Positions 1 through 12,329 of a DNA stretch of 64,000 bases are shown piece after piece (the stretch's first letter is position 1; each line of letters begins with the position of its first letter). Both the position numbers and the translations under genes were made by a program. The stretch spans positions 1 through 64,000 of the forward strand of contig NZ_JAKFHA010000023.1 of assembly GCF_021502675.1 (NCBI RefSeq), written 5' to 3'. This DNA comes from Yinghuangia soli (lineage in GTDB: Bacteria > Actinomycetota > Actinomycetes > Streptomycetales > Streptomycetaceae). Below the pieces are notes generated by a model. That model ran no database searches. It saw nothing but the letters and a program-made list of their open reading frames with translations, and was not told the origin of the DNA.

Positions 1-120
1 TGGCTCCACGGCTTCCGCCGCCTACGGATCCGCTGGGAACGCCGCGACGACATCCACGAAGCCTTCCTCGCCCTCGCCACCTGCCTCATCACGCTCAGGC
101 ACGTACAACGCCTTTGTTAG
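1..120 (+). CDS. IS5-family-like transposase, C-terminal end (partial)
   Basis: The frame is open from the window edge and stops at TAG 118-120. The 39 visible residues (starting WLHGFRRLRIRWERR and ending LRHVQRLC) look like the C-terminus of IS5-family DDE transposases common in Streptomyces; this is recognition from memory, not a search. The stop codon lies in what is probably the right terminal inverted repeat of the insertion sequence. Directly after it, in the same frame, integrase-type sequence resumes, so the IS appears to have landed inside an integrase gene. The catalytic residues lie outside the window, so activity cannot be judged. Confidence 0.7.
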   Translation, partial: WLHGFRRLRIRWERRDDIHEAFLALATCLITLRHVQRLC

Positions 121-366
121 GACCACTTACGCCACGGCGGGGTCTCGCTCGGGCTCAACGGCACGGCCGACCCGACGGACGTCGCCGAACGAGCCGGCCA
201 CAGTGTGGAGACGCTGCTGCGGGTCTACGCCAAGTGCATCGACGGGCGCCGCGACGCGAACAACAAGCTGATCGAGGAGCGCTTGAACGAGGGCCTGGCG
301 AAGCCGGACAAGGCGGCGAAGGGCGGCAAGCGCAAGAAGAAGGGCAAGGGGAAGAAGCACAAGTGA
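121..366 (+). pseudogene. Tyrosine recombinase (integrase) C-terminal fragment, cut by an IS
   Basis: After the IS stop codon the same frame reads DHLRHGGVSLGLNG..., then AERAGHSVETLLRVYAKC, and ends in a Lys-rich tail (KRKKKGKGKKHK). This matches box II of tyrosine recombinases: the R and H of LRH, the H of GHS, and the nucleophilic Tyr of VYAKC. It aligns with the C-terminus of the intact integrase at 10113-11486 (YDLRHAALSTWLNAG..., SRYAKCLDGR). The N-terminal two thirds, including the first catalytic Arg, are missing in this window, so it is a remnant of a neighbouring integrative element. The attachment-site copy at 482-598 follows it, just as the intact integrase is followed by the other copy. 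Confidence 0.75.
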
Positions 367-400
367 ATGAGGTCAGGCCCACTGACCTGCGCGAACACAG

Positions 401-434
401 CGGCCCGCGGTCCTCACGGACTGGCGGGCCGTTT
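401..434 (+). terminator. Hairpin terminator after integrase remnant
   Basis: CGGCCCGC (401-408) pairs with GCGGGCCG (424-431). An inner GTCC/GGAC stem extends the hairpin, and TTTC follows. A smaller hairpin, AGGTCAG/CTGACCT (370-388), lies between it and the integrase stop. The position suits a transcription end for the truncated integrase. Confidence 0.5.
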
Positions 435-481
435 CGCACCTGTTTCGCAGATGGCGACAAACAGCCGCTCAGAGCGGCATG

Positions 482-598
482 CGGCTGCACATGGTCTGGA
501 CCCTACAAACAGTAATGGCCCCTGGTGAGGGGCCATATCCGCTGGTCTTGCGAGGTGCCCCCGGCAGGATTCGAACCTGCGCACACGGCTCCGGAGGC
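482..598. repeat. Left attachment-site copy (direct repeat with 11622-11738)
   Basis: Positions 482-546 (65 bp) equal 11622-11686. After a 7-bp divergent stretch, 554-598 (45 bp) equal 11694-11738. The 45-bp part is the 3' half of the tRNA-Arg(CCG) gene, from the anticodon loop to the acceptor end. This is the usual core of tRNA-targeting integrative elements. The 65-bp part holds a perfect hairpin (515-536, stem ATGGCCCCT) that is also present beside the intact tRNA. The repeat marks the junction between the truncated left element and the intact element on its right. Confidence 0.88.
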
Positions 599-660
599 AC
601 CTACAATCCCAAGCATATGTGCAGGTCAGAAGCTCGGAGGCCCTTCGTTATCAGGGTGCT

Positions 661-677
661 CGCCACGAGTACGCCAC
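661..677 (+). other. Candidate integrase arm-type site, left end
   Basis: CGCCACGAGTACGCCAC lies 63 bp inside the left 45-bp repeat and recurs with one change (CGCCACGAATACGCCAC) at 11572-11588, just inside the right end. Each copy contains CGCCAC twice, spaced 11 bp. Paired repeats at both ends of an element are typical of integrase or Xis arm sites. That role is inferred. Confidence 0.45.
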
Positions 678-745
678 GACCGGGTTGCGGCCCCTGCACC
701 CCGCCCCGAGGGGCACTGACGTCATATGAGGCATAGCGTGGAGGC

Positions 746-1198
746 ATGAAGTGGCTGGTCTTGGTGCCCGCAGCCATCGCCGTGGCTGCCTTGCTGAGCG
801 GATTTCTCAACCATCAGTACAGGCAGCCGCGTGGTCGTCACAAGGTGAAGATGGACCTGGAGATTCTTGGGCTTCTGCCGAAGGACAGCGGAATCAGAAC
901 GAAACTTCTTGGCCACATCGACGCCACCATTAAGGGCATTATCGAGGTTGAGGATTCGCGGCGACGCGACTGGCAGGGTATTTGGCTAGCTGTTGTCTTC
1001 CTCGTGACTTCGGGTTCCTTGTTCTACGGCGCATCTGAGAACGACGGTGACTGGTGGTGGCTTGCGTCTGGGGCGATCGTCGCGTTCGTCGGAACGATGG
1101 GACTACTGGTCAGCGGCCCTAAAAGGCAGCGAGACATCGGGGGGTCGCCGATCGATCAGGTGGATGGCGATCAGGGCCGTGATCATGTGAAGCGTTGA
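746..1198 (+). CDS. Small predicted membrane protein of the element
   Basis: 150 residues with a hydrophobic N-terminus (about 3-20) and two further hydrophobic segments (about 74-93 and 99-120) separated by an acidic, Trp-rich loop (ENDGDWWW). The middle region, about 25-70, is charged. I do not recognise the family. A GGAGG sits at 740-744, only one base before this ATG; that is very close, so translation could begin at TTG 761 or GTG 764 instead. Codon use is less GC-rich than in the chromosomal genes, in line with carriage on the mobile element. No neighbour overlaps it. An entry-exclusion or spread role is possible, but nothing in the sequence shows it. Confidence 0.58.
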   Translation: MKWLVLVPAAIAVAALLSGFLNHQYRQPRGRHKVKMDLEILGLLPKDSGIRTKLLGHIDATIKGIIEVEDSRRRDWQGIWLAVVFLVTSGSLFYGASENDGDWWWLASGAIVAFVGTMGLLVSGPKRQRDIGGSPIDQVDGDQGRDHVKR

Positions 1199-1244
1199 AG
1201 CCGCTGGGGGTGGCGATCCCGCGCAATTCGATAGGTGGAGCGAC

Positions 1245-1399
1245 GGTTTGCCGAACCTTGATCGCCGGGGCGGGAGCATGAACGGGGGCCCGTAAACTTG
1301 ATCGGTGAATGTGGGGGGCTTGCCACCCCACCCGAATTCCCACATTGGGCCCCCGTTCTTGCTCCCGGTGGGCCCCCGGCTATCGAGGTTCGGCAAAGC
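1245..1399. repeat. 155-bp imperfect inverted repeat between genes
   Basis: The left arm from 1245 (reading TTTGCCGAACC, then TTGATCGCCGGGG, then GGGAGCATGAACGGGGGCCC) returns in reverse complement in the right arm ending at 1399 (GGTTCGGCAAAGC as its outer end). The arms are roughly 50 nt, with a few substitutions and one 5-nt gap. A second dyad, AATGTGGG (about 1309-1316)/CCCACATT (about 1340-1347), sits inside. There is no open reading frame of its own. The surrounding 1199-1624 is otherwise free of genes. A MITE-like remnant or a structured single-strand origin are both possible; neither is proven. Confidence 0.7.
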
Positions 1400-1624
1400 T
1401 TCGTGGAGCCGGTCCCACGGATCGAGTCGCGCGCCTGCACTTCGTGGGCGCGCGGTGGCCGCCGCCGGCCGGGACCGGCGGAACGCCGCACGCCCGGCCG
1501 AGCGGCGAGCCGGCCGCGCGCCCGGCGCGCGTGGCGCGCCGGGCTTCTTGAACACGTAGGGAAACTTTTGACGCACCCCGCGTCGCGCGTTCCGGCTAGG
1601 GCCCGTCTCCGCGGAGCACCTACT

Positions 1625-2206
1625 GTGGCTGTCATGGGAACGGACCTCGCGACCCCCTCGGCTGCGGCAGCGCTGGCAGAGAAGATGCTGCCCCCACTCG
1701 GTGACCGTTGGGCACATGTCCAAGCCGTCGCCGCCAAGGCGGAAGCCATCGCTGTTGTCGTGCCCGAAGCAGACCGGAACCTGTTGGTGGCCAGCGCCTG
1801 GCTGCACGACATCGGATACGCGCCTGAGATTCGCCACACCGGCTTTCACCCGCTGGACGGCGCGAGATTCGGAGCGACTCAAGGTGCCAGCCGTCGCCTG
1901 TGCTGCCTGATCGCACATCACTCAGGCGCCGTGTATGAGGCTGAGCAGCGCAACCTGGCCACCGACCTTGCGGACTACGAGCGTGAGGACGGCCCGGTTC
2001 TGGACGCCCTGATCTACTCCGACATGACGACCGGTCCGCAGGGCCAGTCGTTGCCGTTCGAGGCGCGCATCGACGAGATTCTCGTCCGCTACTCGGCCGG
2101 TGACCCGGTGCACACGGCGATCACGAACGCACGCCCGTACCTGCGCGCTGCGGTACAGCGGACAGAATCTCGGCTAACCGATGTAGGGCTCAGTCCGGCC
2201 TTCTAG
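1625..2206 (+). CDS. HD-domain phosphohydrolase-like protein
   Basis: 193 residues from GTG 1625, which has GGAG at 1613-1616 with 8-nt spacing; ATG 1634 is the alternative but lies 17 nt away. His31, the paired His61-Asp62 in WLHDIGY and the later AHHSGA motif fit the metal-binding residues of HD-superfamily hydrolases, which act on nucleotides or phosphate esters. The substrate cannot be read from the sequence. Its 3' end overlaps the convergent Nudix gene by about 33 bp. An HD gene tail to tail with a Nudix gene inside a pSAM2-like element suggests nucleotide housekeeping or transfer control. Confidence 0.78.
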   Translation: MAVMGTDLATPSAAAALAEKMLPPLGDRWAHVQAVAAKAEAIAVVVPEADRNLLVASAWLHDIGYAPEIRHTGFHPLDGARFGATQGASRRLCCLIAHHSGAVYEAEQRNLATDLADYEREDGPVLDALIYSDMTTGPQGQSLPFEARIDEILVRYSAGDPVHTAITNARPYLRAAVQRTESRLTDVGLSPAF

Positions 2207-2644
2207 GTAGTGGTCGATTCGCATCCGCATCGACGGATGGATGCTCAGTGTGTCCAGCCGATCGACCGCAACGAACTCGACCTCCTTCGTCTCGCTGCTG
2301 GTCCGGAGTTCCCCGCCGAGCACACGGGTGGTGAAGCACACGCTGAACTGCTGGCGGACCTCGCCGTCGTCGTACGCCATGACGTGCCCCGGGTTGGTGT
2401 AGATCCCGATGATCCCGGTGACCTCGACGTCGATTCCCGTCTCTTCCTTCACCTCGCGGACCGCCGCGTGAGCGATCGATTCGCCGAGGTCCATGCCGCC
2501 ACCGGGCAGCGCCCAAAGGTCGTTGTCGGTCTTGTGCACCAAGAGGATTCGCCCGGCTTCGTCTGTCGCAACTGCGGTGACGGACGGAACGAGGCTGTTC
2601 GCCGGCGGGGCTTCTGGGTCGTCCAGATAGTCGATACGAGCCAT
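2174..2644 (-). CDS. Nudix hydrolase, possible Pif-like transfer immunity protein
   Basis: 156 residues with a complete Nudix box at 49-71: G49, E55, R63-E64, E67-E68, G70 (REVKEETGI). It should hydrolyse a nucleoside diphosphate linked to another moiety; the substrate is unknown. In pSAM2 the immunity factor Pif carries a Nudix motif and blocks redundant transfer into cells that already hold the element. The equivalent location here makes this protein a candidate for that role, but Nudix proteins are common and the link is an inference. Its end overlaps the convergent HD gene. It lies on the same strand as, and 12 bp downstream of, the XRE regulator gene, so the two are probably co-transcribed. 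Confidence 0.82.
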   Translation of the reverse strand: MARIDYLDDPEAPPANSLVPSVTAVATDEAGRILLVHKTDNDLWALPGGGMDLGESIAHAAVREVKEETGIDVEVTGIIGIYTNPGHVMAYDDGEVRQQFSVCFTTRVLGGELRTSSETKEVEFVAVDRLDTLSIHPSMRMRIDHYLEGRTEPYIG

Positions 2645-2656
2645 GCCATCAGCTTG

Positions 2657-3406
2657 TCACGACACCTCGGCGACCGGCCTTGCGCTCTCCCAGACACGAT
2701 CAAAGCTGGCCATGTAGTGGGTGTACACGCGTCCCCCGGAGACTTGTCGCAGGTGGAGAACCGGGTTTTGCGCCGCTGGCGCCCCGTAGACATGCGTGTT
2801 GACCAAGGCATCCCGGTCGAAGCGGTAGATGGAGTTGTACAGCACCACACCGTGCAGACGAACATCGACACCCGGCTGTGCCAATGCCGGACGCAGGTAA
2901 TTGAGCGCCAGCCGTACACGCGCCGCGAGGCCGTCGCCGATGCCCTCTTCATCCCCGCGCGCACGTACCGCAGGGCTATCAGGATCGCCGAGAAGGATGC
3001 GTACCCGCGTCCCTGAACGTCCCTTCTCCGCAAGAACATCGGCTAGATCGGCGCGTGTGTCGGCGAGGAACAACCCTGCGAACGCCAGTAGATCGATGGA
3101 CTCACGGGAGCGGCCCAGCAGCGTTGACCACAGCTTGGCTGGCACGGCGCTGCGGTTCGGGTACATCGTGACTAGTTCGGCCTGACTGGCCCGCTTGGTG
3201 TGCGGGTCATCTTCGACACTTGGCCACAGGTAGATCTCATCCGCACCGAGGTAGCGTGCAGCACCTTCGCGGTGTGCACGGTGCGGAACGCGTTCTTTGG
3301 TGATCCACCGCTCCACGGTCTTGGGGTCAACACCGAGGTGTCCAGCGAGATCGCTGATCTTGATTCCCTTGTCAGCAACGGCATTTCGCAGCCGCTCGTT
3401 CGCCAT
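2657..3406 (-). CDS. XRE-family transcriptional regulator with C-terminal effector-like domain
   Basis: 249 residues from ATG 3406, preceded by a G-rich ribosome site. Residues 10-40 form a Cro/CI-type helix-turn-helix (KISDLAGHLGVDPKTVERWI). The rest (about 80-249) matches what I recall of DUF5919-type C-terminal regions in actinobacterial regulators, with LLGRSRESIDLLAFAG and VRILLGDPDSP. This has a faint phospholipase-D-like flavour, and a catalytic role is not evident. It is divergent from the transfer genes starting at 3548, and the space between holds repeated ACGTCC motifs that could be its operator. A repressor keeping transfer genes silent in the integrated state is the likely role. 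Confidence 0.78.
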   Translation of the reverse strand: MANERLRNAVADKGIKISDLAGHLGVDPKTVERWITKERVPHRAHREGAARYLGADEIYLWPSVEDDPHTKRASQAELVTMYPNRSAVPAKLWSTLLGRSRESIDLLAFAGLFLADTRADLADVLAEKGRSGTRVRILLGDPDSPAVRARGDEEGIGDGLAARVRLALNYLRPALAQPGVDVRLHGVVLYNSIYRFDRDALVNTHVYGAPAAQNPVLHLRQVSGGRVYTHYMASFDRVWESARPVAEVS

Positions 3407-3430
3407 GTCCACGCACCCCCGCGCGTAGTA

Positions 3431-3491
3431 GGGACGTTTCGAGAGTACTGAAGACGTCCCTGTACGTCCATGCCGGAGGTCCCGACGTCCC
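3431..3491. promoter_or_regulatory. Candidate operator array for the XRE regulator
   Basis: The divergent intergenic region carries GGGACGT (3431-3437) and, inverted to it, ACGTCCC (3454-3460), ACGTCCA (3464-3470) and ACGTCCC (3485-3491). The direct copies are spaced 10 and 21 bp, one and two helical turns. This fits cooperative binding by a dimeric helix-turn-helix regulator. That it is the neighbouring XRE protein which binds is inferred from position. Confidence 0.5.
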
Positions 3492-3547
3492 CGCATGCCG
3501 CGGTTTCTTTGTGAGGCAAGGAAGTTGCGACTCTCAAGGAGATGGAC

Positions 3548-3895
3548 ATGGTTGCGATTCCGGTGGACGTGACGGCAGCGATGGTGATGGTGGCCATGCC
3601 GCCGGTGCCGAAGGTCAAGGACAAGCGCACGGGTGAGATCGCGGTGGACCACGAGACCGGCGTTCCGCTGGTGAACGTGACGGTGAACTTCGTCTTCGAC
3701 GGCGCGGTGGAGTTGCTGACGGTGGCGGTCCCGGAGACCGGCATCGCCGATGACCTGCTGCCCGGTGCGATGGTCGCGATGACCGGGATGGTCGCGCGGT
3801 CCTGGGAGATGGAGTTCAACGGGCGCAAGACCCACGGCGTCTCGTTCCGCGCTGTCGCGGTGACCGCGCTCGCGCCGGCCGGGAAGCAGGGCTGA
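3548..3895 (+). CDS. Conserved small protein at the start of the transfer genes
   Basis: 115 residues from ATG 3548, which has GGAG six bases upstream; the ATG at 3542 sits right on that ribosome site and is less likely. The sequence is beta-rich (VNVTVNFVFDGAVELLTVAVPE, taken as short strands) and ends in a Lys/Gly tail. Such proteins precede the FtsK-like gene in many Streptomyces AICEs, but I know of no established function. The fold could be OB-like, which would suit single-strand DNA binding; this is a guess from strand pattern. It ends 3 bp before the next gene, so the two are surely co-transcribed. Confidence 0.68.
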   Translation: MVAIPVDVTAAMVMVAMPPVPKVKDKRTGEIAVDHETGVPLVNVTVNFVFDGAVELLTVAVPETGIADDLLPGAMVAMTGMVARSWEMEFNGRKTHGVSFRAVAVTALAPAGKQG

Positions 3896-3898
3896 GCG

Positions 3899-4396
3899 AT
3901 GGCCTCGGATCTGGTCGTGGGCCTTGAGCTGCTGGGCCTGTCCTCGCCGTTCGTGGCGATCGGCGTGATGCGGATGAAGTACCTGGCCGGCCTTTCGCCT
4001 GAGGGGCGGGCCGGTATCCGGCTGGCGCGGCGCGCTCAGCGCGACTGGGTGCAGCTCGCGCTCAACCTCGGCCTGAAGTGGGAGGAGCCCACGGCGGGGC
4101 GTCGCGAGTTCGCGTGGCTGAACAACCCGCAGTTGCCGCGGGGCCGCACGCCCCGGGTCGAGGTGCCGCGGTTCCGGGCCGAGCCGATCGAGGGCGGGTT
4201 CGTGGCCACGGTCGGCACGATGCACGGTGTGGGCCTGGCGGAGGTGCAGAAGCAGGCCGAGCACCTGCGCAACGCCTGGCGCTGTGAGCGGGTCACGGTC
4301 GAGCAGGACGTCCCGGGCAAATTGAAGATCCGGGCGCTGATCACCGACCCGCTGACCGTCCCGTACAGCCCGAGGAAGGGCGCGACATGGGCCTGA
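3899..4396 (+). CDS. FtsK/Tra-associated N-terminal protein (split motor, part 1)
   Basis: 165 residues. A hydrophobic stretch lies at the N-terminus (about 5-25), followed by a region (about 95-165) resembling the segment upstream of the ATPase core in FtsK/TraB-like translocases (FVATVGTMHGVGLAEVQKQAEHL and LKIRALITDPL). No Walker motif is present. Its stop overlaps the start of the next gene (ATG 4387) by 10 bp, giving tight translational coupling with the ATPase half. It likely works with that protein as a membrane or oligomerisation part of the double-strand DNA transfer motor. It could equally be an independent small transfer protein. Confidence 0.68.
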   Translation: MASDLVVGLELLGLSSPFVAIGVMRMKYLAGLSPEGRAGIRLARRAQRDWVQLALNLGLKWEEPTAGRREFAWLNNPQLPRGRTPRVEVPRFRAEPIEGGFVATVGTMHGVGLAEVQKQAEHLRNAWRCERVTVEQDVPGKLKIRALITDPLTVPYSPRKGATWA

Positions 4397-5298
4397 CCAG
4401 CGTCCTGCTCGGGCGTGACGAGGTTCGGGAGGAGATCCGACTGCGGCTGTCCGGCGTGCCGGGCATGACCGTGGTCGGCCTGCCGGGCTACGGAAAGACG
4501 CAGCTCATCATGCACCTGGTCGGCGAGTTGGCGGACTGCCCGTACGTGCAGTTCGCGTTCCTGGACGGCAAGGGCGGCCCGGACTACGACGACGTCGCAC
4601 CGCGGGCGTTCGTGCACCTGGGCGACGACATCAAGGAAGCCCTGGAGCTGGTCCGGTACCTGTACGAGCTGATGCAGCAACGCCAGGGCGCCCTGCGCGA
4701 GCACCTGGGCGTGAAGAACCTGTGGCACGTGGGCCCGTCCGCGCTGTGGCCGCTGATCGTGCTGGTCGTGGACGAGGCGCACACGTTCTTCTACACCGGC
4801 AAGGGCACCACCCGCGAGGAGGCCGCCGCCGCACACGAACTGGTACGGCTGATCGAGCAGTTGGTCAAGAAGGGCCGCAACGTCGGCTTCTTCACCGTCC
4901 TGCTCACCCAGAAGGGCACCGGGGACGCGATCCCGACGCAGATCCGGGACGTGTGCACCCTGAAGGTCGCGTTCGCGGTCGCCACGATGGAAGCCGCGGA
5001 CGCCGGCCTGGGGCAGGCGATCCGGATGTACCCGGACGCACACCCGATGTTCCTGCAAGACCCGAAGTACATCGGGGTCGCGACCATCGCCCGCGAGGGC
5101 GCCAAGGGCTTCACCCGGGTCCGCATCCCCACGGTTGACGAAGACGCCGTGGCCGAACGGGCCCACAAGTACAGGTTCCTGGCGTCCGACCCGGCTGGCC
5201 TGTTCGACGTGGCCTGCCGCACGCTCGGCAGCCCCGGGCCGGTCCCGCTGCCGGTGCCCGACGTGGACGCCGACGACGGCGCCGATCTGGTCGCCTAG
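4387..5298 (+). CDS. FtsK/SpoIIIE-like DNA translocase (Tra) ATPase
   Basis: 303 residues. Walker A GLPGYGKT is at 31-38 and Walker B LIVLVVDEAH at about 122-131, followed by a long motor-type helix region (VRLIEQLVKKGRNVGFFTVLLTQ) and a sensor-like TQKGTGDAIPTQIRD. In AICEs a single FtsK-like hexameric ATPase pumps double-stranded DNA into the recipient. The size is close to what I recall for pSAM2 TraSA. There is no transmembrane segment in this ORF. The preceding overlapping ORF probably supplies the N-terminal portion. The C-terminus is Pro/Asp-rich (PLPVPDVDADDGAD). Confidence 0.82.
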   Translation: MGLTSVLLGRDEVREEIRLRLSGVPGMTVVGLPGYGKTQLIMHLVGELADCPYVQFAFLDGKGGPDYDDVAPRAFVHLGDDIKEALELVRYLYELMQQRQGALREHLGVKNLWHVGPSALWPLIVLVVDEAHTFFYTGKGTTREEAAAAHELVRLIEQLVKKGRNVGFFTVLLTQKGTGDAIPTQIRDVCTLKVAFAVATMEAADAGLGQAIRMYPDAHPMFLQDPKYIGVATIAREGAKGFTRVRIPTVDEDAVAERAHKYRFLASDPAGLFDVACRTLGSPGPVPLPVPDVDADDGADLVA

Positions 5299-5387
5299 CC
5301 CGACCGCATTCACCGTACCTCCGGCGGCGTGACCGCATCACGCCAGGTCCCTACCCGACCCATGCCCGAATCGAAAGGAGAACCGGC

Positions 5388-5603
5388 ATGACCGACCGCC
5401 CCACGCTCTCCGAGGTCACCGCGCTCATCCGCGAGTTGAAGGAACTCATCGTGGACGGCGTCGGCGACCCGGCCGAGGTCATGGACCACAAGGCCGACCT
5501 GTTCGAACGCACCGCGCTCCACGACCCCGGCATGCCCGGCATCGCCGACGTCGCCCGGGACGCCCGCACCTACGCCGACCGGCTCAACGGCCGGCTGCCG
5601 TGA
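5388..5603 (+). CDS. Small acidic helical protein of the element
   Basis: 71 residues from ATG 5388 with a strong ribosome site (AAAGGAGAA). The sequence is acidic and mostly helical (LSEVTALIRELKELIVDGVGDPAEVMDHKADL). No known motif is visible. Its stop overlaps the GTG of the next gene (GTGA), so the row of tiny genes from here to 6824 is translated as a coupled set. Conserved small ORFs of this kind follow the Tra gene in Streptomyces AICEs; the function is unknown. Confidence 0.68.
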   Translation: MTDRPTLSEVTALIRELKELIVDGVGDPAEVMDHKADLFERTALHDPGMPGIADVARDARTYADRLNGRLP

Positions 5604-5779
5604 CCGACTCCCCGGAACCGTGCACCGCGTGCGAGGGCGGCCAGACCGTGACCGTCCCGGTCCGCGTCGGTCGCGCCCGCCGCCGTGTCGGCAGCCAGGA
5701 CGGCTGGTGCCTGCGGTGCTTCGGCACCGGCACCGAACCCGCTTCCTGCGACGAGACCCGAGAGGAGGACAACCCGTGA
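5600..5779 (+). CDS. Tiny CxxC zinc-ribbon-like protein
   Basis: 59 residues from GTG 5600, overlapping the previous stop by 4 bp. CTAC at the N-terminus and CLRC near residue 43 could bind one zinc ion between them. A basic stretch (RVGRARRRVGS) lies between the pairs, as in small nucleic-acid-binding ribbons. The frame keeps GC-rich third positions. It overlaps the next start (GTG 5776) by 4 bp. Function unknown. Confidence 0.6.
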   Translation: MTDSPEPCTACEGGQTVTVPVRVGRARRRVGSQDGWCLRCFGTGTEPASCDETREEDNP

Positions 5780-6030
5780 TCTTCGGAACCGACTTCGAGG
5801 ACGCACCGCGCGTGCCGACCCTGGGCGGCTGGCTCGCCGACAGTGCCCGCGAACTCTGGCACGGCGACGGCTTCACCACCCAGTGCCGCGACTGGCTCGC
5901 CGGCCGCCCGGTCCGCCGGACCTCGGTGCCCGTGCAGTCGCTCGGCGGCTGGCTCGCCACCGGCAGCGCGTACGCCGCACGCCGGTCCGTGCCCTGCTGC
6001 ACCGACCCCGACTGCCCGCACCTGACCTGA
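5776..6030 (+). CDS. Small protein with two repeated GGWLA segments
   Basis: 84 residues from GTG 5776, with GAGAGGAGG about 8 bases upstream. LGGWLADSA (about 16-24) and LGGWLATGS (about 57-65) form an internal repeat. The C-terminus has CCTDPDCPH, which could hold a metal. I do not recognise the family. It belongs to the coupled small-gene row after the transfer motor. Confidence 0.58.
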   Translation: MIFGTDFEDAPRVPTLGGWLADSARELWHGDGFTTQCRDWLAGRPVRRTSVPVQSLGGWLATGSAYAARRSVPCCTDPDCPHLT

Positions 6031-6044
6031 AAGGAGGGCCCGTG

Positions 6045-6161
6045 ATGTACCCCTGCCCCGACTGCGACGGCTTCCCCGTCGTTGCCACCGGCCATGGCAC
6101 CGAACGCTGCCCGGCCTGCCACGGCACGGGCAACGACACCGCGACCGCACCTGCGCAGTAG
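6045..6161 (+). CDS. Tiny protein with paired CxxC motifs
   Basis: 38 residues. GGAGG lies 7 bases before ATG 6045; GTG 6042 is an alternative 4 bases away. CPDC (4-7) and CPAC (about 24-27) followed by HGTG resemble one half of a DnaJ-type zinc module. It is too short for a domain of known function, but the cysteine pairs and good ribosome site argue that it is real. Confidence 0.55.
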   Translation: MYPCPDCDGFPVVATGHGTERCPACHGTGNDTATAPAQ

Positions 6162-6248
6162 CTCCGCCCCGGCCGGACGCCTCCAACCACCAAGTCATCG
6201 GCGTCCGGCCGGGTCACCCACCACCCACAAGGAGTGAGGAGAACTCCA

Positions 6249-6407
6249 GTGAACACCAGCGACATCACCGGCGCACCGCGCTACTCGGCCATGTGCAGCG
6301 TCTGCTCGGGCGCCGGAACCGTCCAGCGCGGCTGGGTCTTCCTGCGTCTGCGCCCGTGCCGCCACTGCCGCGGCACCCGCTACGCCACCGCGGCCGGCGC
6401 CCGATGA
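6249..6407 (+). CDS. Tiny CxxC protein, DnaJ-zinc-finger-like
   Basis: 52 residues from GTG 6249, with GAGGAGAA upstream. CSVCSGAGTV and CRHCRGT carry CxxC pairs followed by Gly, as in DnaJ cysteine-rich repeats, and the chain is Arg-rich. It overlaps the next gene by 4 bp (ATGA at 6404). Similar small proteins occur in Streptomyces AICE accessory regions; role unknown. Confidence 0.58.
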   Translation: MNTSDITGAPRYSAMCSVCSGAGTVQRGWVFLRLRPCRHCRGTRYATAAGAR

Positions 6408-6637
6408 ACGACTACTTCGGCTACGACCCGGACGAGTACCGGGCCCGCGTCCTGGACGATGCCGACCGCTCCGCCGACCTGGCGAACGGCTTCAACGCCT
6501 ACGACGCGCTTCCCGGTCGCGACCGCGCATTCTCCGACGTCCTCTACGACGCGCTGACGCCGCCGCTCACCGCCACCGGCGAACTCGACTACGGCCAGTA
6601 CCCGCCGCCCGGTCACAGCTTCCCGCGCGTGGGATGA
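6404..6637 (+). CDS. Small acidic protein of the element
   Basis: 77 residues from ATG 6404, translationally coupled to the previous gene by an ATGA overlap. The N-terminus is Tyr/Asp-rich (MNDYFGYDPDEYRAR) and the rest is acidic, with no cysteine and no recognised motif. It ends one base before the next gene. Confidence 0.55.
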   Translation: MNDYFGYDPDEYRARVLDDADRSADLANGFNAYDALPGRDRAFSDVLYDALTPPLTATGELDYGQYPPPGHSFPRVG

Positions 6638-6638
6638 C

Positions 6639-6824
6639 ATGGGCGTCGCCCTCGACTGGACAAGCGGATCGCACTGGGGCGGATCGCACGAACCCTGTGT
6701 GATCTGCGGCGAGTTGACGTTCCTCGTCTCCGACCGCGGCCGCCCCTGCCACAAGGAATGCGCCGAACGCTGGTACGACGCCCACCCCCACGTGGAGCCC
6801 TTCGGCCCGCACTGGCGCACCTGA
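6639..6824 (+). CDS. Small zinc-finger-like protein (CxxC...CHxxC)
   Basis: 61 residues from ATG 6639. CVIC (about 20-23) and CHKEC (about 37-41) make a four-ligand zinc site of treble-clef or ribbon type. There is no separate ribosome site; it follows the previous stop by one base, so it probably relies on re-initiation. It is the last gene before a strong terminator hairpin at 6840-6880. Confidence 0.6.
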   Translation: MGVALDWTSGSHWGGSHEPCVICGELTFLVSDRGRPCHKECAERWYDAHPHVEPFGPHWRT

Positions 6825-6839
6825 AATCCCCGATTCCCC

Positions 6840-6880
6840 GGTACGGCACCGGCCGGCCACCCGCGCCCCGGTGCCGTACC
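6840..6880 (+). terminator. Hairpin terminator before the methyltransferase gene
   Basis: GGTACGGCACCGG (6840-6852) pairs perfectly with CCGGTGCCGTACC (6868-6880): 13 bp with a 15-nt loop and no T-run. The position separates the small-gene row from the methyltransferase-Rep group. Confidence 0.6.
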
Positions 6881-6911
6881 GCACCACGCCTCCATCCGAA
6901 AGGAGTGCCTC

Positions 6912-7847
6912 GTGCTCGCCTCGACACCTGCACCCGGCTTGCGGATCGGGTCGCTGTGCTCCGGATACGGCGGCCTGGACCTGGCCGTGACCGACGTCGT
7001 CGGCGGCTCGGTCCTCTGGCACGCGGACAACGCCCCGGCCGCCGCCGCGGTGCTCGCCCGCCACTGGCCCGGCGTCCCGAACCTCGGCGACATCAAGACC
7101 GTCGACTGGCAGTCCGTTCCGCCCGTCGACCTGGTCACCGCCGGCTACCCGTGCCAACCGTTCTCGTCCGCCGGCCAGAAGAAGGGAGTCAACGATGCCC
7201 GGCACCTTTGGCCCCATGTCGCTCGTGCCCTGGGCCTCCTTCGACCTCGTTGGGTCGTGTTGGAGAACGTGGGGCATCACCTCCGGCTCGGCTTCGACGT
7301 CGTGCTCGGTGACCTTGCCCGCCTCGGGTTCGATGCGCGGTGGTGCTGTGTACGAGCGTCCGATGTGGGAGCGGCCCACGAGCGTCGCCGGCTGTTCGTC
7401 CTCGCGTGGGACGCGGCTGTTGCCGACCCCGCGGGCCTCGGACCACACCGGTCCCGGACTGCGCGGGAACGGCGGGCTGAACCTGCGCACCGCGGTCCGG
7501 CTGTTGCCGACCCCGGCGGCGCGGGACTGGAGGTCCGGCCGGTCGAACCTGCTGGGCACCAACGCCAGACCGCTGAACGAGGTGGCGCAGATGACGTTGG
7601 CACCTGGGGCCACTACGCCGCAGCCGTCGCCACGCAGGAAGCGGCGACCCGCCCCGCCCCTCGGCCAGTTGACGATCTGGGACGACTGAATCCCGGGTTC
7701 TCCGAGTGGCTGATGGGCCTGCCTGCCGGCTGGGTCGCCGACACCCCGGGGCTGTCCCGCACCGCGCAACTGACCGTGCTCGGCAACGGCGTGGTCCCGG
7801 CCCAGGCAGCTGCGGCACTGAATGCGCTGATCGGAGAGTCCTGGTGA
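6912..7847 (+). CDS. C5-cytosine DNA methyltransferase
   Basis: 311 residues from GTG 6912, with AAAGGAG upstream. Motif I is GSLCSGYGGLDLAV (about 12-25), motif IV PCQPFS (Cys81 as nucleophile), motif VI ENV (about 118-120) and motif VIII-like HERRRLF (about 157-163). The C-terminal motifs IX/X run from LNPGFSEWLMGLP to TVLGNGVVPAQAA. No restriction partner is adjacent, so it may be an orphan enzyme that shields the element. Residues about 163-232 are odd: the +1 frame over 7390-7610 reads LLPTPRASD and LLPTPAARD, motifs known from related phage-type enzymes. The gene stop overlaps the next start. Confidence 0.85.
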   Translation: MLASTPAPGLRIGSLCSGYGGLDLAVTDVVGGSVLWHADNAPAAAAVLARHWPGVPNLGDIKTVDWQSVPPVDLVTAGYPCQPFSSAGQKKGVNDARHLWPHVARALGLLRPRWVVLENVGHHLRLGFDVVLGDLARLGFDARWCCVRASDVGAAHERRRLFVLAWDAAVADPAGLGPHRSRTARERRAEPAHRGPAVADPGGAGLEVRPVEPAGHQRQTAERGGADDVGTWGHYAAAVATQEAATRPAPRPVDDLGRLNPGFSEWLMGLPAGWVADTPGLSRTAQLTVLGNGVVPAQAAAALNALIGESW

Positions 7848-8494
7848 CCAAGACCCTTGCCCGCCTGCGCCTTGACCCGCTGCTCGTTCAGGCGGCCATC
7901 GCCGGTGCGCTGTCGTTCTCGCACCTGCACGACATCGCCCAGGCGGCCGGCCAGTCCGGCTGGCAGGCCTGGGCCTACCCCGTGTCCGTCGACCTGCTAT
8001 TGGTCGCGGCGTGGCGCCGCCTGGTCGCCGCCCGCGACATCGGGGCCGGCCAGTTCATGCCGTGGCTGTGGTTCCTCGTCGCGCTCGCCGCGTCGCTCGG
8101 CGCGAACGTCGCCACCGCCGGACTCCTCGACCTGGAGAACCCGCCCGCGTGGCTGCGGCTGACGGTCGCCGGATGGCCGGCTCTGGCGTTCCTCGGCGGC
8201 ACGCTCCTCGTCCACCGACCCGCCGCGGTTCGGCAGCCCGCACCCACGCCTGAACCAGCGCCGGCCGTCGAGGTCCTTCCCGACCTGGACGTCGAACCCG
8301 AACCGGTGGCTCTGCCTGCGCCTCCCAAGCCACCTGCGGTGGTTGCCCCCGCGCTGCTGGACCACGCGCGCCGCATCGCCGACACACACCGCCGAACGAC
8401 CGGCCACCCGATGACCCCGGACGCTCTCCGAGCCCGACTGGGCGTCCCCGCCCCGCTCGCGGCACAGATCGCCGCGCACCTCGAACTCACCTGA
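7844..8494 (+). CDS. DUF2637-like membrane protein (spread-type)
   Basis: 216 residues from GTG 7844, overlapping the methyltransferase stop by 4 bp. About four transmembrane segments lie within residues 10-125 (AAIAGALSFSHLHDIA, VSVDLLLVAAW, WLWFLVALAASLGANVA, LAFLGGTLLV). A Pro/Ala-rich linker (about 130-165) and a C-terminal helix-turn-helix-like region follow. DUF2637 proteins occur beside Rep genes in Streptomyces plasmids and AICEs and are thought to help intramycelial spread; family and role are from memory. Confidence 0.73.
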   Translation: MTKTLARLRLDPLLVQAAIAGALSFSHLHDIAQAAGQSGWQAWAYPVSVDLLLVAAWRRLVAARDIGAGQFMPWLWFLVALAASLGANVATAGLLDLENPPAWLRLTVAGWPALAFLGGTLLVHRPAAVRQPAPTPEPAPAVEVLPDLDVEPEPVALPAPPKPPAVVAPALLDHARRIADTHRRTTGHPMTPDALRARLGVPAPLAAQIAAHLELT

Positions 8495-8510
8495 CCACCC
8501 TGGAGGAACC

Positions 8511-9929
8511 TTGCCCCAGCTGCTCGCGGGGGACGTGGCGCCGGCGGCGCTCGCCGATCTGGCCCGCGCCGCCCGCCACGGACGCAGTGCCGGACTTTTC
8601 GCGCAGCTCGAACGCCTCGGCGGCTGCGCCGACCCGATCCGCCTCGACGGCCACCGCACCGACATCGACACCACCAGCGGCGAAATCGTCCACACGGTGA
8701 CCGCACACGACCTGCCCGCCGGCGCGCTGCTGGTCCGCTGCAACAACCGCCGCACCACCCGCTGCCCGGCCTGCGCCGAGACCTACCGCCGCGACACCTA
8801 CCACCTCATCAGCGCCGGACTGGCCGGCGGCAAAGGCGTCCCGGACGACGTCGCCGCGCACCCGCGCGTGTTCGTCACGCTGACCGCCCCGTCGTTCGGG
8901 CCCGTGCACAACCGCCCGGACTCCGGACGCTGCCGCTGCGGCACCCGCCACCGCCCCGATGCCGCCGAACTCGGCACCCCGCTCGACCTGGACACCTACG
9001 ACTACACCGCCGCGGTCCTGTGGAACGCGCACGCCGGAGCGCTGTGGGCGCGCTTCAGCATCGAACTTCGCCGCGCTCTGGCCGCCGCGGTCGGGCTGAC
9101 GCAACGCGTCTGCGCCGAGTTGCTGCGCCCATCGTTCGCAAAGGTCGCTGAGTACCAGCGGCGCGGCGCCGTGCACTTCCACGCGGTCATCCGCCTCGAC
9201 GCCGGACGCCGCGCCGGAGACGACATCACCCCACCACCCGACGGATACGGCGACTGGCACCACGTACTCGAGTCCGCCGTGCGCGTTGCCGCCGGCCGAG
9301 CCCGCGTCCCCGGACCCGACGCAGAAGGCACCGACCTGCCGAGCCACTTCGTGTTCGGGCGACAGGTCGACGTCCGGCCGATCCGCAGCAACGCACTCGC
9401 GGACGGGCCGCTCACCGATCGGTCGGTCGCCGGCTACATCGCCAAGTACGCCACCAAGGGCGCCGAGACCGCGACCGGGACGCTCGACCGCCGCATTGCC
9501 AGCCTGGCGGACCTGGACCGGCACGACCTGACCGACCACGCCCGCCGCCTGGTCGCCGCCTGCTGGACCCTCGGCACCCGTCCCGGCCTCGAACACCTGC
9601 TCCTGCGCAAGTGGGCCCACATGCTCGGCTTCCGCGGCCACTTCACCACCAAGTCTCGCTGCTACTCCACCACCCTGGGCGCCTTACGTGCAGTCCGCAT
9701 GCTGTGGAACGAGACCCGCCGCCGCGCCGCCGCAGAAGCCGCCGGACACCCGCTGCCCGACCCGGACACCACACTCGTCCTCGCGCACTGGGAGTACGCC
9801 GGCCACGGACACACCGCCGGCGAATCCCTCATCGCCGCAGGACTCGACCGCACCCGACAACTCGGCCATGAAGCCGCACGAGAAGCACGCGCCGAACGGG
9901 ACGAGGAAGGAGCGGACGATGCCCGGTAG
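8511..9929 (+). CDS. Rolling-circle replication initiator (RepSA-like)
   Basis: 472 residues from TTG 8511, with GGAGGAA directly upstream. The N-terminal region has cysteine pairs (CPAC at about 84-87, later CRCG). Motif FVTLTAPSFG is followed by the HUH motif HFH (about 222-224, in RRGAVHFHAVIRL) and the Tyr-containing YIAKYATKG (about 307-315), where a tyrosine would nick the origin. This is the RCR initiator type used by pSAM2 to replicate after excision. It overlaps the excisionase start by 11 bp, giving the rep-xis-int operon seen in pSAM2. The double-strand origin was not located. Confidence 0.85.
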   Translation: MPQLLAGDVAPAALADLARAARHGRSAGLFAQLERLGGCADPIRLDGHRTDIDTTSGEIVHTVTAHDLPAGALLVRCNNRRTTRCPACAETYRRDTYHLISAGLAGGKGVPDDVAAHPRVFVTLTAPSFGPVHNRPDSGRCRCGTRHRPDAAELGTPLDLDTYDYTAAVLWNAHAGALWARFSIELRRALAAAVGLTQRVCAELLRPSFAKVAEYQRRGAVHFHAVIRLDAGRRAGDDITPPPDGYGDWHHVLESAVRVAAGRARVPGPDAEGTDLPSHFVFGRQVDVRPIRSNALADGPLTDRSVAGYIAKYATKGAETATGTLDRRIASLADLDRHDLTDHARRLVAACWTLGTRPGLEHLLLRKWAHMLGFRGHFTTKSRCYSTTLGALRAVRMLWNETRRRAAAEAAGHPLPDPDTTLVLAHWEYAGHGHTAGESLIAAGLDRTRQLGHEAAREARAERDEEGADDAR

Positions 9930-10116
9930 GACCGATGAACTCATGACCGTGCCGCAGATCCTTGCCGAGCTCGGCGACGTGTCTCGGCGCACCTTCTACC
10001 GGTGGCGTGAACTTGGCACGGCACCCGCGGCCATGAAGCTCCCGAACGGTGAGCTGCGCGTCTGGCGCTCGGACTTCACGGCATGGCTCAACGGGCTTGA
10101 GGAGACCGCGGCATGA
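9919..10116 (+). CDS. xis: Excisionase (MerR/HTH_17-type)
   Basis: 65 residues from ATG 9919, with AAGGAGCGG upstream, starting inside the end of rep. It is a compact winged helix-turn-helix (LMTVPQILAELGDVSRRTFYRWRELG) with a short wing (LPNGELRVWRSDFTAWL), typical of AICE excisionases that bend att DNA and steer the integrase to excision. It overlaps the integrase start by 4 bp (ATGA), so the two are translated together. Confidence 0.85.
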   Translation: MPGRTDELMTVPQILAELGDVSRRTFYRWRELGTAPAAMKLPNGELRVWRSDFTAWLNGLEETAA

Positions 10117-11486
10117 AGTCGCTGGACGTGCGCATCTGGGGTATCCGCCTGGACAAGCGCGCCAAGAACCCCATGTATGAACTGCGCTGGCGCGTGGCGG
10201 GTGAGGTGTTCCACGAGCGGTTCCGCACCAAGGGCCTGGTCGACACCTTCCGCGCGAAGCTCGTCACGGCGACGAAGGACGGGGAGCCCTTCGACACCGA
10301 ATCGGGGCTGCCAGCGTCGATGGAGAAGAAGACGTCACCGCTGACCTGGTACGAGTTCGCTTGCGCCTACGCTGCGGCGAAGTGGCCCTTTGCGTCGGCC
10401 AATCACCGCGACAGCATCAGCGAGACGCTGACCGGCGCCACACTGGCGATGCTCGCGGACCGCCCCGGGCGACCTGATGCGGCCGTGTTGCGCGCGGCAC
10501 TGCGGGGCTGGGCCTTCATCCCCGCGGAACGCTGGCCGGATCAGCCGACCGAGGTTGCGAACGCCCTTCACTGGGTGGGCCGCTCATCGCGACCGGTGGC
10601 CGATCTCGCGGAACCTGCCGCGATGCGCGCCCTCTTGGACGCGTTGGCGCTGCGCCAGGATGGCCGGCGTGCTGCGGCTGAGACGGTACGGCGCAAGAGG
10701 TCAGTCCTCTACGGGGCACTCACGCGCGCAGTCGAGCTGCGGGCGCTCACGGAACACCCGATCGACGCCATCAAAGTGGCTGGCGCCAAGGTGAACAAGC
10801 AGGTTGACCGCCGCGTCGTCGTCAACCCGAAGCAGGCACGCGAACTCCTCATCGCCGTTTCGTACGTGGGCGGCTACTCGCGTGCCCGCGGCCGCCGCCT
10901 GGTGGCCATGTTCGCGTGCATGTACTACGCCGGACTCCGGCCTGCGGAAGCGGTGGGGCTCCTGCGCACGGACTGCACTCTGCCCAAGAAGGGATGGGGC
11001 GTCATCGTCCTGCACAAGACCCGCCCGACGGCTGGCAAGAGGTGGACCGACTCCGGGGACACCCACGATGCCCGCGGGCTCAAGAACCGGGCCGAGGAAG
11101 AGACTCGTCGTATCCCGATCCCGCCCGTGTTGGTCAAGCATCTTCGGCGTCACCTCCGGGACTTCCCAGGTGCCAAGGACGGCCGCGTCTTCGGGAACGA
11201 ACGCGGGGACCTGGTCGGCTCGTCCACCTACTCCCGAGCCTGGCAAGAGGCACGGGAACTTGCACTCACACCGGAGCAAGCAGCATCGCCGCTCGCCGGC
11301 ACGCCGTACGACCTGCGGCACGCGGCTCTGTCGACATGGCTCAACGCGGGCATGGACCCGCCCGAAGTCGCGCAGCGCGCCGGCAACAGCGTGGACGTGC
11401 TGATGAGCCGGTACGCGAAGTGCCTGGACGGCCGAGACGAGATCAACAACCAGAAGATCGAGAAGTTGCTACGCGGCAAGCACTGA
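10113..11486 (+). CDS. int: Tyrosine recombinase, site-specific integrase of the AICE
   Basis: 457 residues. The catalytic region holds Arg276 (YAGLRPAEA), Arg402-His403 in YDLRHA, and Tyr434 in SRYAKC. The usual His of the GHS motif is Asn425 (RAGNS), whereas the truncated integrase at 121-366 keeps His. The N-terminal arm-binding and core-binding regions span about 1-220. It integrates the element into the tRNA-Arg(CCG) gene located 210 bp downstream. It is coupled to xis by an ATGA overlap, so its expression depends on the rep-xis-int transcript, as in pSAM2. Confidence 0.92.
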   Translation: MKSLDVRIWGIRLDKRAKNPMYELRWRVAGEVFHERFRTKGLVDTFRAKLVTATKDGEPFDTESGLPASMEKKTSPLTWYEFACAYAAAKWPFASANHRDSISETLTGATLAMLADRPGRPDAAVLRAALRGWAFIPAERWPDQPTEVANALHWVGRSSRPVADLAEPAAMRALLDALALRQDGRRAAAETVRRKRSVLYGALTRAVELRALTEHPIDAIKVAGAKVNKQVDRRVVVNPKQARELLIAVSYVGGYSRARGRRLVAMFACMYYAGLRPAEAVGLLRTDCTLPKKGWGVIVLHKTRPTAGKRWTDSGDTHDARGLKNRAEEETRRIPIPPVLVKHLRRHLRDFPGAKDGRVFGNERGDLVGSSTYSRAWQEARELALTPEQAASPLAGTPYDLRHAALSTWLNAGMDPPEVAQRAGNSVDVLMSRYAKCLDGRDEINNQKIEKLLRGKH

Positions 11487-11502
11487 ACGGCGGCGGTACG
11501 GT

Positions 11503-11528
11503 AGGCCCCTGGGGATTCCCGGGGGCCT
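11503..11528 (+). terminator. Terminator after int
   Basis: AGGCCCC (11503-11509) pairs with GGGGCCT (11522-11528), and the pyrimidine-rich CTTCGCTTTCCC follows. It lies 17 bp after the integrase stop. Confidence 0.65.
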
Positions 11529-11571
11529 CTTCGCTTTCCCGGCGTGACCTGCGAAAACGCAGCAAGATCCC

Positions 11572-11588
11572 CGCCACGAATACGCCAC
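11572..11588 (+). other. Candidate integrase arm-type site, right end
   Basis: CGCCACGAATACGCCAC differs by one base from the copy at 661-677 near the other end of the element and has the same orientation. It lies between the int terminator and the right att repeat. Confidence 0.45.
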
Positions 11589-11621
11589 AGCGCAGGTCAC
11601 ACGCCTGCACATTGCCGCTTC

Positions 11622-11738
11622 CGGCTGCACATGGTCTGGACCCTACAAACAGTAATGGCCCCTGGTGAGGGGCCATATCCGCTGGTGAAACTGGGTGCCC
11701 CCGGCAGGATTCGAACCTGCGCACACGGCTCCGGAGGC
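11622..11738. repeat. Right attachment-site copy overlapping tRNA-Arg
   Basis: This matches 482-546 and 554-598 except for 7 bp (11687-11693). The last 45 bp (11694-11738) belong to the intact tRNA gene. The crossover therefore restores a full tRNA on this side and leaves a 3'-half copy at 554-598. Confidence 0.88.
11655..11676 (-). terminator. Hairpin downstream of tRNA-Arg
   Basis: ATGGCCCCT (11655-11663) pairs with AGGGGCCAT (11668-11676) around GGTG: a perfect 9-bp stem 20 bp beyond the tRNA 3' end. Read on the minus strand it is followed by TACTGTTTG. It is duplicated at 515-536. Confidence 0.6.
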
Positions 11739-11767
11739 CGTTGCTCTATCCCCTGAGCTACGGGGGC
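11696..11767 (-). tRNA. tRNA-Arg (anticodon CCG)
   Basis: 72 nt on the minus strand. The acceptor stem is GCCCCCG/CGGGGGC, the D arm GCTC...GAGC, the anticodon stem ACGGC/GCCGT with loop CTCCGGA (anticodon CCG), and the T arm GCAGG-TTCGAAT-CCTGC, with discriminator A. No CCA is encoded. All stems pair. The 3' half is the integration core of the neighbouring element, and the gene stays complete after integration because the att core carries the missing half. Confidence 0.95.
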
Positions 11768-11819
11768 TCGAGGTGGGTGAAACATTACCAGTCCGTGGGT
11801 GGTGGTTGCGCCAGGGTTT

Positions 11820-11895
11820 CCCGTGGGGTGGGGGCGCGGGGGTGTGCGGGGGCGGCGGGTTGGGGGTGTGGGGGTGGTTGCGGGGTGGGAAGTGG
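11820..11895 (+). other. G-rich tract with G-quadruplex potential
   Basis: The top strand has many runs of three to five G separated by one to four bases (GTGGGGTGGGGGCGCGGGGG, then GGGGGCGGCGGG, TTGGGGGTGTGGGGG, GGGGTGGG), enough for several quadruplexes. It lies between the tRNA 5' end and the response-regulator gene, outside any reading frame I trust. Confidence 0.5.
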
Positions 11896-11939
11896 CGGTT
11901 CGGGCACCGGAGGGTGCGGCGGGCGCTTAGGGTCTGGGT

Positions 11940-12329
11940 GTGGGCGGTAGGCCGGGGGCGAAGGCCGGGCGGGTCCTTGTCGTGGATGACGACGAGGTGA
12001 TCCGGCGGCTCATCATGGTCAATCTGCAGATGGAGGGGTTCGAAGTGACCTCTGCTGCGGACGGTGAAGAGTGCCTGGGGAAGGTGCACGAAGTGCGGCC
12101 TGACCTGGTGACGCTGGATGTGATGATGCCGAGGTTGGACGGGATACGGACCGCGGCGCGGTTGCGTGCGGATCCGCGGACCAGCCATCTGAAGATCGTG
12201 ATCATCAGTGCGTGTGCGCAGAGCGCGGATCTGGCGCGGGCCCGGGAGGCCGGCGTCGATGCGTATCTGACGAAGCCGTTCGACCCGGATCAGTTGATAC
12301 GGGTGGTTCGGGGCCTGGCGATCCGGTGA
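11940..12329 (+). CDS. Single-domain response regulator (CheY-like)
   Basis: 129 residues from GTG 11940. The receiver fold is complete: acidic pocket VVDDDE (about 15-20), phospho-acceptor Asp in TLDVMMP (about 60), Ser in IISACAQ and Lys in LTKPFDP. No output domain follows, so signalling must go through protein contacts. No histidine kinase lies nearby. Comparable stand-alone receivers sit just upstream of argS in Streptomyces. An obvious ribosome site is lacking, so the exact start is uncertain. Confidence 0.83.
   Translation: MGGRPGAKAGRVLVVDDDEVIRRLIMVNLQMEGFEVTSAADGEECLGKVHEVRPDLVTLDVMMPRLDGIRTAARLRADPRTSHLKIVIISACAQSADLARAREAGVDAYLTKPFDPDQLIRVVRGLAIR

Follow-up and report, generated by a model that had tools for sequence, protein, structure and literature searches.

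The window, a stretch of 64,000 nucleotides that corresponds to bases 1-64000 of contig C16 in the draft genome (9.7 Mb, 91 contigs) of Yinghuangia soli, a member of the Streptomycetaceae, carries an intact tRNA-Arg (CCG) gene on the minus strand (11694-11767, ARAGORN), which is the integration target of an element that we call E1. The body of E1 (599-11613) contains the modules expected of a pSAM2-type AICE, as indicated by its gene content and by a relative of it in Streptomyces sp. SID3343, integrated at the same tRNA (integrase 71% identical, DNA 71% over 3.2 kb). Its genes follow the order FtsK-type transfer protein, DUF2637 protein, RepSA, small helix-turn-helix (HTH) protein and integrase, with a NUDIX gene on the opposite strand. 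The FtsK/SpoIIIE-type transfer protein (4387-5298, plus strand; TraSA/TraB-like) is short at 303 aa, matching Pfam FtsK_SpoIIIE (9.4e-09) and no NCBIfam model. The RepSA-type replication initiator (8511-9929, plus strand; Pfam RepSA, 7.3e-144) reaches 3.3e-158 against NCBIfam RepSA, yet stays below the curated cut-off. The small HTH protein occupies the position of Xis (9919-10116, plus strand; Pfam HTH_17, 1.5e-06), and the 457-aa tyrosine integrase follows at 10113-11486 on the plus strand (Pfam Phage_integrase, 4.5e-07, just above the cut-off). The NUDIX-domain protein (2174-2644, minus strand; Pfam NUDIX, 3.7e-21) may have a Pif-like role. A match to C-5 cytosine methylases at 6912-7847 is confined to positions 2-161 of the 324-position Pfam profile, and the gene is a truncated or divergent piece of cargo. 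E1 thus combines the features by which an AICE is recognised, namely an integrase beside an att site in a tRNA 3' target, a replication initiator and an FtsK/SpoIIIE-type transfer protein. It shares with pSAM2-type AICEs the tyrosine integrase, the small HTH protein, RepSA, the FtsK-type transfer protein, NUDIX and a tRNA 3' core; unlike pSAM2, whose target is tRNA-Pro, E1 is integrated at tRNA-Arg (CCG).

E1 is bounded by two att copies in direct repeat, one at its right end overlapping the tRNA (11614-11738) and one upstream of it (474-598), which are 93% identical over 125 bp. Within 400-12000 this att pair is by a wide margin the strongest direct repeat (141 nt at 89%; the runner-up is 40 nt at 73%). 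Each copy consists of a 65-bp flank (482-546 and 11622-11686, identical at 65/65 positions) and a 45-bp core derived from the 3' part of tRNA-Arg (554-598 in the outer copy, identical to the tRNA-side copy at 45/45 positions), and six of the seven bases between flank and core differ between the two. An earlier sequence-only reading had proposed that a remnant integrase outside E1 is followed by its own att copy and that the two copies share a 65-bp flank, and both observations hold. Since E1 has the only unbroken integrase gene and two unchanged core copies, its sequence suggests that it is probably the sole member of the locus still able to excise.

Upstream of the outer att copy, the window begins within an insertion sequence (IS) of the IS5 family, of which the right end, with the transposase C-terminus, is present (1-126, plus strand; stop codon TAG at 118-120). 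It abuts the C-terminal portion of another integrase (127-366, plus strand), which we assign to an outer element, E2. The transposase and the integrase piece are both in frame 1, as had been noted in the earlier reading. The in-frame joining that it described does not amount to a fusion, because the transposase terminates at the TAG (118-120). Four contigs of this genome (C16, C42, C1 and C18) begin with the same 126 bases, so the left edge of the window reflects an assembly break within a repeated IS, which the contig end truncates. The opposite end of the IS occurs on four further contigs (C77, C79, C27 and C11). Right ends thus stand at C16:1, C42:1, C1:1 and C18:1, and left ends at C77:1, C79:1, C27:1 and the end of C11, so that these four right and four left ends at contig ends apparently represent collapsed copies. 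TTA is found at all four left flanks and at three of the four right flanks, the fourth (C18) having TAA, a mismatch with the left flanks that we count against the array proposed below. The 39 transposase residues in the window, taken alone, match no Pfam family. The family assignment comes from an intact relative in another genome (G051, locus L092), 885 bp long and flanked on both sides by a TAA target duplication, whose transposase scores above the cut-off for the IS5-family model NF033580 and contains DUF4096. The copy studied here has a short duplication of the same TNA type, with TTA on both sides.

The piece of E2 integrase in the window amounts to 79 codons, 54 of which align, at 52-53% identity, to residues 400-453 of the 457-residue E1 integrase. 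Its resemblance to the C-terminus of the intact element was correctly recognised from the sequence, and the estimate that it comprises the last third was too generous, the true share being the last 12-17%. Alone, the 79 residues match no Pfam family. Six places in the genome match the E1 integrase: the C16 fragment, E1 itself, one each on C77 and C57, and two on C12 (31-32% identical). The match on C77 (L022) covers residues 330-401 of the E1 integrase and so adjoins the part found on C16. Both pieces border the same IS at opposite ends: on C77 TTA precedes the left IS end, and on C16 TTA follows the right IS end (127-129). Joined over a single TTA, as in an empty site, the two pieces give 155 residues that read through the conserved PYDLRH box. 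The leftward continuation envisaged in the earlier reading was thus partly recovered: C77 holds the opposite end of the IS together with the neighbouring stretch of integrase, and the IS target duplication is the TTA seen on both contigs. The middle of the IS lies on neither C77 nor C57, and a search of the whole genome did not recover the N-terminal two thirds of the E2 integrase. Because these were not found and a stop stands upstream of the joined stretch, E2 was damaged by more than the IS. That the left-edge IS is a wrong assembly join, with no IS beside the integrase fragment, might be suspected from the presence of the same IS end on four contigs. We regard this as very improbable, because the integrase fragment, the att copy and E1 are contiguous on C16 and because, among the four contigs with the opposite end, only C77 has an integrase match, which is the adjoining piece and carries the same TTA.

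C77 (5222 bases) holds further remains that we attribute to E2 and terminates in the right end of a second IS, of the IS3 family. It contains a truncated att trace in which ACACGGCTCCGGAG, representing 14 nt of the shared core, is followed 25 bases on by GCAGGTCAG; beside the window att copy the corresponding spacing is 24. Two of the six ORFs scanned on C77 have a Pfam domain, and neither is a rep or tra gene. They are an APH-type phosphotransferase-domain protein (L022, 1489-2406, minus strand) and an SMI1/KNR4 (SUKH-1) protein (4462-5136, minus strand), both cargo. The SMI1/KNR4 gene, flanked by the IS3 end on one side and the truncated att trace on the other, is possibly a trace of a fourth element. 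At E 1e-3, neither C77 nor C57 yielded a homologue of the Rep, transfer, HTH, NUDIX or DUF2637 proteins of E1; the missing transfer-protein homologue is weak evidence, since the same search found none in any fetched relative. E2 is accordingly recognised by its split integrase remnant, the att copy at 474-598 and the truncated trace on C77, and is classed as a remnant and not as an AICE because rep and tra genes were found on neither C77 nor C57. It also differs from a CIME, which has two intact flanking att sites, in that only 14 core nucleotides survive in the C77 trace. Tandem accretion with decayed members is likewise known from ICESt1-related elements and CIMEs of Streptococcus thermophilus. 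Because the left att trace is truncated, mobilisation of E2 in cis looks less likely.

A third integrase C-terminus, E3, followed by an att copy (28957-29081), is found on C57, which ends in the left end of an IS3-family element. The core of this att copy has four changes (by eye). It supplies the third att copy that the earlier reading expected to the left, in addition to the truncated trace on C77. Over the aligned parts, the integrases are 53% (E1-E2, 120 positions), 46% (E1-E3, 67 positions) and 41% (E2-E3, 82 positions) identical; E3 is closer to the outer integrase of another genome, G002 (75% over 64 positions). These values bear on several explanations. One of them is that the right end of E1 was simply duplicated, giving the outer integrase end and att copy with no separate element involved, and the perfect identity of flank (65/65) and core (45/45) between the copies speaks for it. 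We nevertheless rejected a duplication because the integrases are only 41-53% identical: the E1 and E2 pieces share just 53% of their residues in protein, C77 carries an additional part of the E2 integrase as well as an att trace, and C57 a third, divergent copy, so that this origin is now hardly credible. It is somewhat less implausible, and still quite unlikely, that a single old element preceded E1 and that its remains were spread over C57 and C77 by IS insertion or rearrangement. Such a history would account for the fact that both remnants preserve the C-terminal side of an integrase and have similar att flanks, and for assembly breaks falling at IS copies. The PYDLRH region is present in both pieces with different sequence (E2-E3 41% identical), which identifies them as two integrases, and each integrase remnant is followed by a separate att copy.

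The IS at the ends of C57 and C77 belongs to the IS3 family, as a complete copy on C14 (L038) has a family transposase scoring above the cut-off (NF033516, 1.3e-93), and the ends on C57 and C77 are 94% and 89% identical to this copy. By eye, GTCC flanks the IS ends on both C57 and C77, and GCGG those on both C20 and C43. Left ends occur at contig breaks on C57, C59, C20 and C10, of which one fits each right end (C77 and C43). The match is 4 bp in two pairs; that of the complete C14 copy seems to be 3 bp, which speaks against the array. From the 4-bp match and from synteny we infer that C57 and C77 are joined through an IS3 copy. The junction itself was found in none of 60 relatives. For its C77 side, the matches in these relatives were short apart from one of 149 nt, located on a different contig of Yinghuangia seranimata (G001); for its C57 side there were two short matches. 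G001 is assigned to this species, a congener of the host, because all 15 chunks of 500 bases taken from the named record L090 occur in its stretch L069.

The Y. seranimata genome is collinear with the C57 flank in several blocks (76-84% identity), and the counterpart of C57 28617-29081 adjoins tRNA-Arg there, after which comes the sequence that corresponds to the window's right flank. C57 has no comparable match in the compared Y. seranimata stretch at about 9.3-23.5 kb and 25.7-28.6 kb. Since the counterpart of C57 28617-29081 adjoins the tRNA in Y. seranimata, an E3-type remnant appears to have stood at the tRNA before E2 and E1. Y. seranimata also has a C77-like att trace 6 kb from the tRNA (L069, about 11650-11706), consisting of GGCTCCGGAG and then GCAGGTCAG, which is possibly the other end of its remnant.

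Given these relationships, we consider it very probable that the locus is a tandem array of related integrative elements that entered one after another, by site-specific integration, at the 3' end of tRNA-Arg (CCG). In this model each new arrival would have integrated next to the tRNA, on the near side of its predecessor, and contributed a copy of the tRNA 3' part together with the flank. The array would then read from the C57 flank through the E3 integrase remnant with its att copy, the IS3 copy, and C77 with the truncated att trace and E2 cargo, to the E2 integrase split by the IS5 copy, the att copy at 474-598, E1, and the att copy with the tRNA. Growth at the tRNA side would make E3 the oldest member, followed by E2 (later split by the IS) and then E1. 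The direct-repeat att copies at 474-598 and 11614-11738 lie on one contig between different elements, as accretion predicts, and the copy at C57 28957-29081 would be the third if the proposed linkage holds. Against the array, no contig spans the whole of it, and both joins cross collapsed IS copies. The lack of E1-type homologues on C77, the mere 14 nt of core in its att trace, the missing C57-C77 junction in the 60 relatives and the unmatched stretches of C57 weigh in the same direction. The earlier proposal that two related AICEs occupied one tRNA site is right about tandem occupation and too low in number, as at least three integrase lineages are present. Although no rep or tra gene was found for E2, both E2 and E3 may once have been full AICEs.

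The 65-bp flank is better conserved than the rest of E1 relative to SID3343, as 61 of its 65 positions are shared compared with 71% DNA identity. At the tRNA of Y. seranimata it is identical (65/65), the displaced C57 copy has 60/65 and the outer copy of G005 59/65; the outer copy of G002 has fewer than 45 ungapped identities and aligns by blastn at 77% over 96 positions. The flank, which lies between the convergent genes for the integrase and the tRNA, can form a hairpin, and in the G002 outer copy one pair has changed on both sides, from C-G to G-C. Other flanks at tRNA-Arg form different hairpins. When 20 flanks were folded on one strand against shuffles preserving base composition only, z ranged from -0.8 (G008) to -6.2 (G013), with -1.2 for E3 on C57 and for the G002 outer copy, -1.8 for E1 and -2.3 for E2. 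Because of this spread, a role of the hairpin as tRNA terminator is a suggestion. Tentatively, and with less than even confidence, the flank could be a functional unit that every element of the group must bring, each supplying its own terminator for the occupied tRNA, which would decay only after displacement by a newer element. Behind this reading is the observation that the flank is the same in E1, E2 and Y. seranimata, while roughly a quarter to a half of the positions differ between the compared integrases, and more than a quarter between E1 and SID3343 in the surrounding DNA. An alternative is exchange of the flank between members of the array. We also considered a native tRNA flank as the source of the arm, since Y. 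seranimata has the flank (65/65 in both species) without an intact integrase. This origin is less likely, because the similarity of Y. seranimata to C57 continues into integrase remains and because other relatives have other flanks at tRNA-Arg.

Among the matches listed, at least seven of 31 genomes, this one included, have a further copy of the core close to this tRNA (G000, G002, G005, G007, G013, G018 with 38 nt only, and G028), all 31 genomes compared having matched the query. In the single-contig genome G002, two integrases about 55% identical to that of E1 and two further att traces lie at the tRNA. Further core or flank copies near tRNA-Arg are located at G007:C23 98335 and 82369, in another genus, and at G002:C1 2953849 and 2958797.

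Accretion of AICEs with remnants at tRNA-Arg is already published (PMC9513070, PMC3218068). According to the parts of PMC9513070 consulted, one to three AICEs or defective AICEs and an old remnant are accreted at one tRNA-Arg in a Streptomyces population, the tandem AICEs being flanked by direct repeats and their integrases 39-88% identical. In the present array, by comparison, an IS5 copy interrupts one remnant integrase, another is reduced to its C-terminus, and the host is a Yinghuangia. The consulted parts of PMC3218068 describe the tandem AICEs Sav3708/Sav3728 (tRNA-Arg) and Fean5518/Fean5534 (tRNA-Lys), with separate and joint excision detected for the Frankia pair. These likewise are AICE-type elements in tandem at one tRNA, but each pair consists of two AICEs, whereas here all modules are found only in the tRNA-proximal element. 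No IS-split integrase is described in the consulted parts of either source.

Our work leaves the knowledge of AICEs unchanged, and documents a case of accretion by at least three integrase lineages in which a sister species, Y. seranimata, shows the state before the last two arrivals. It also illustrates how arrays of this kind escape notice, because IS copies divide the outer layers and interrupt draft assemblies; the flanks of the collapsed IS5 copies could help to order contigs. The conserved flank offers a small, testable lead on how these elements keep the tRNA gene working.
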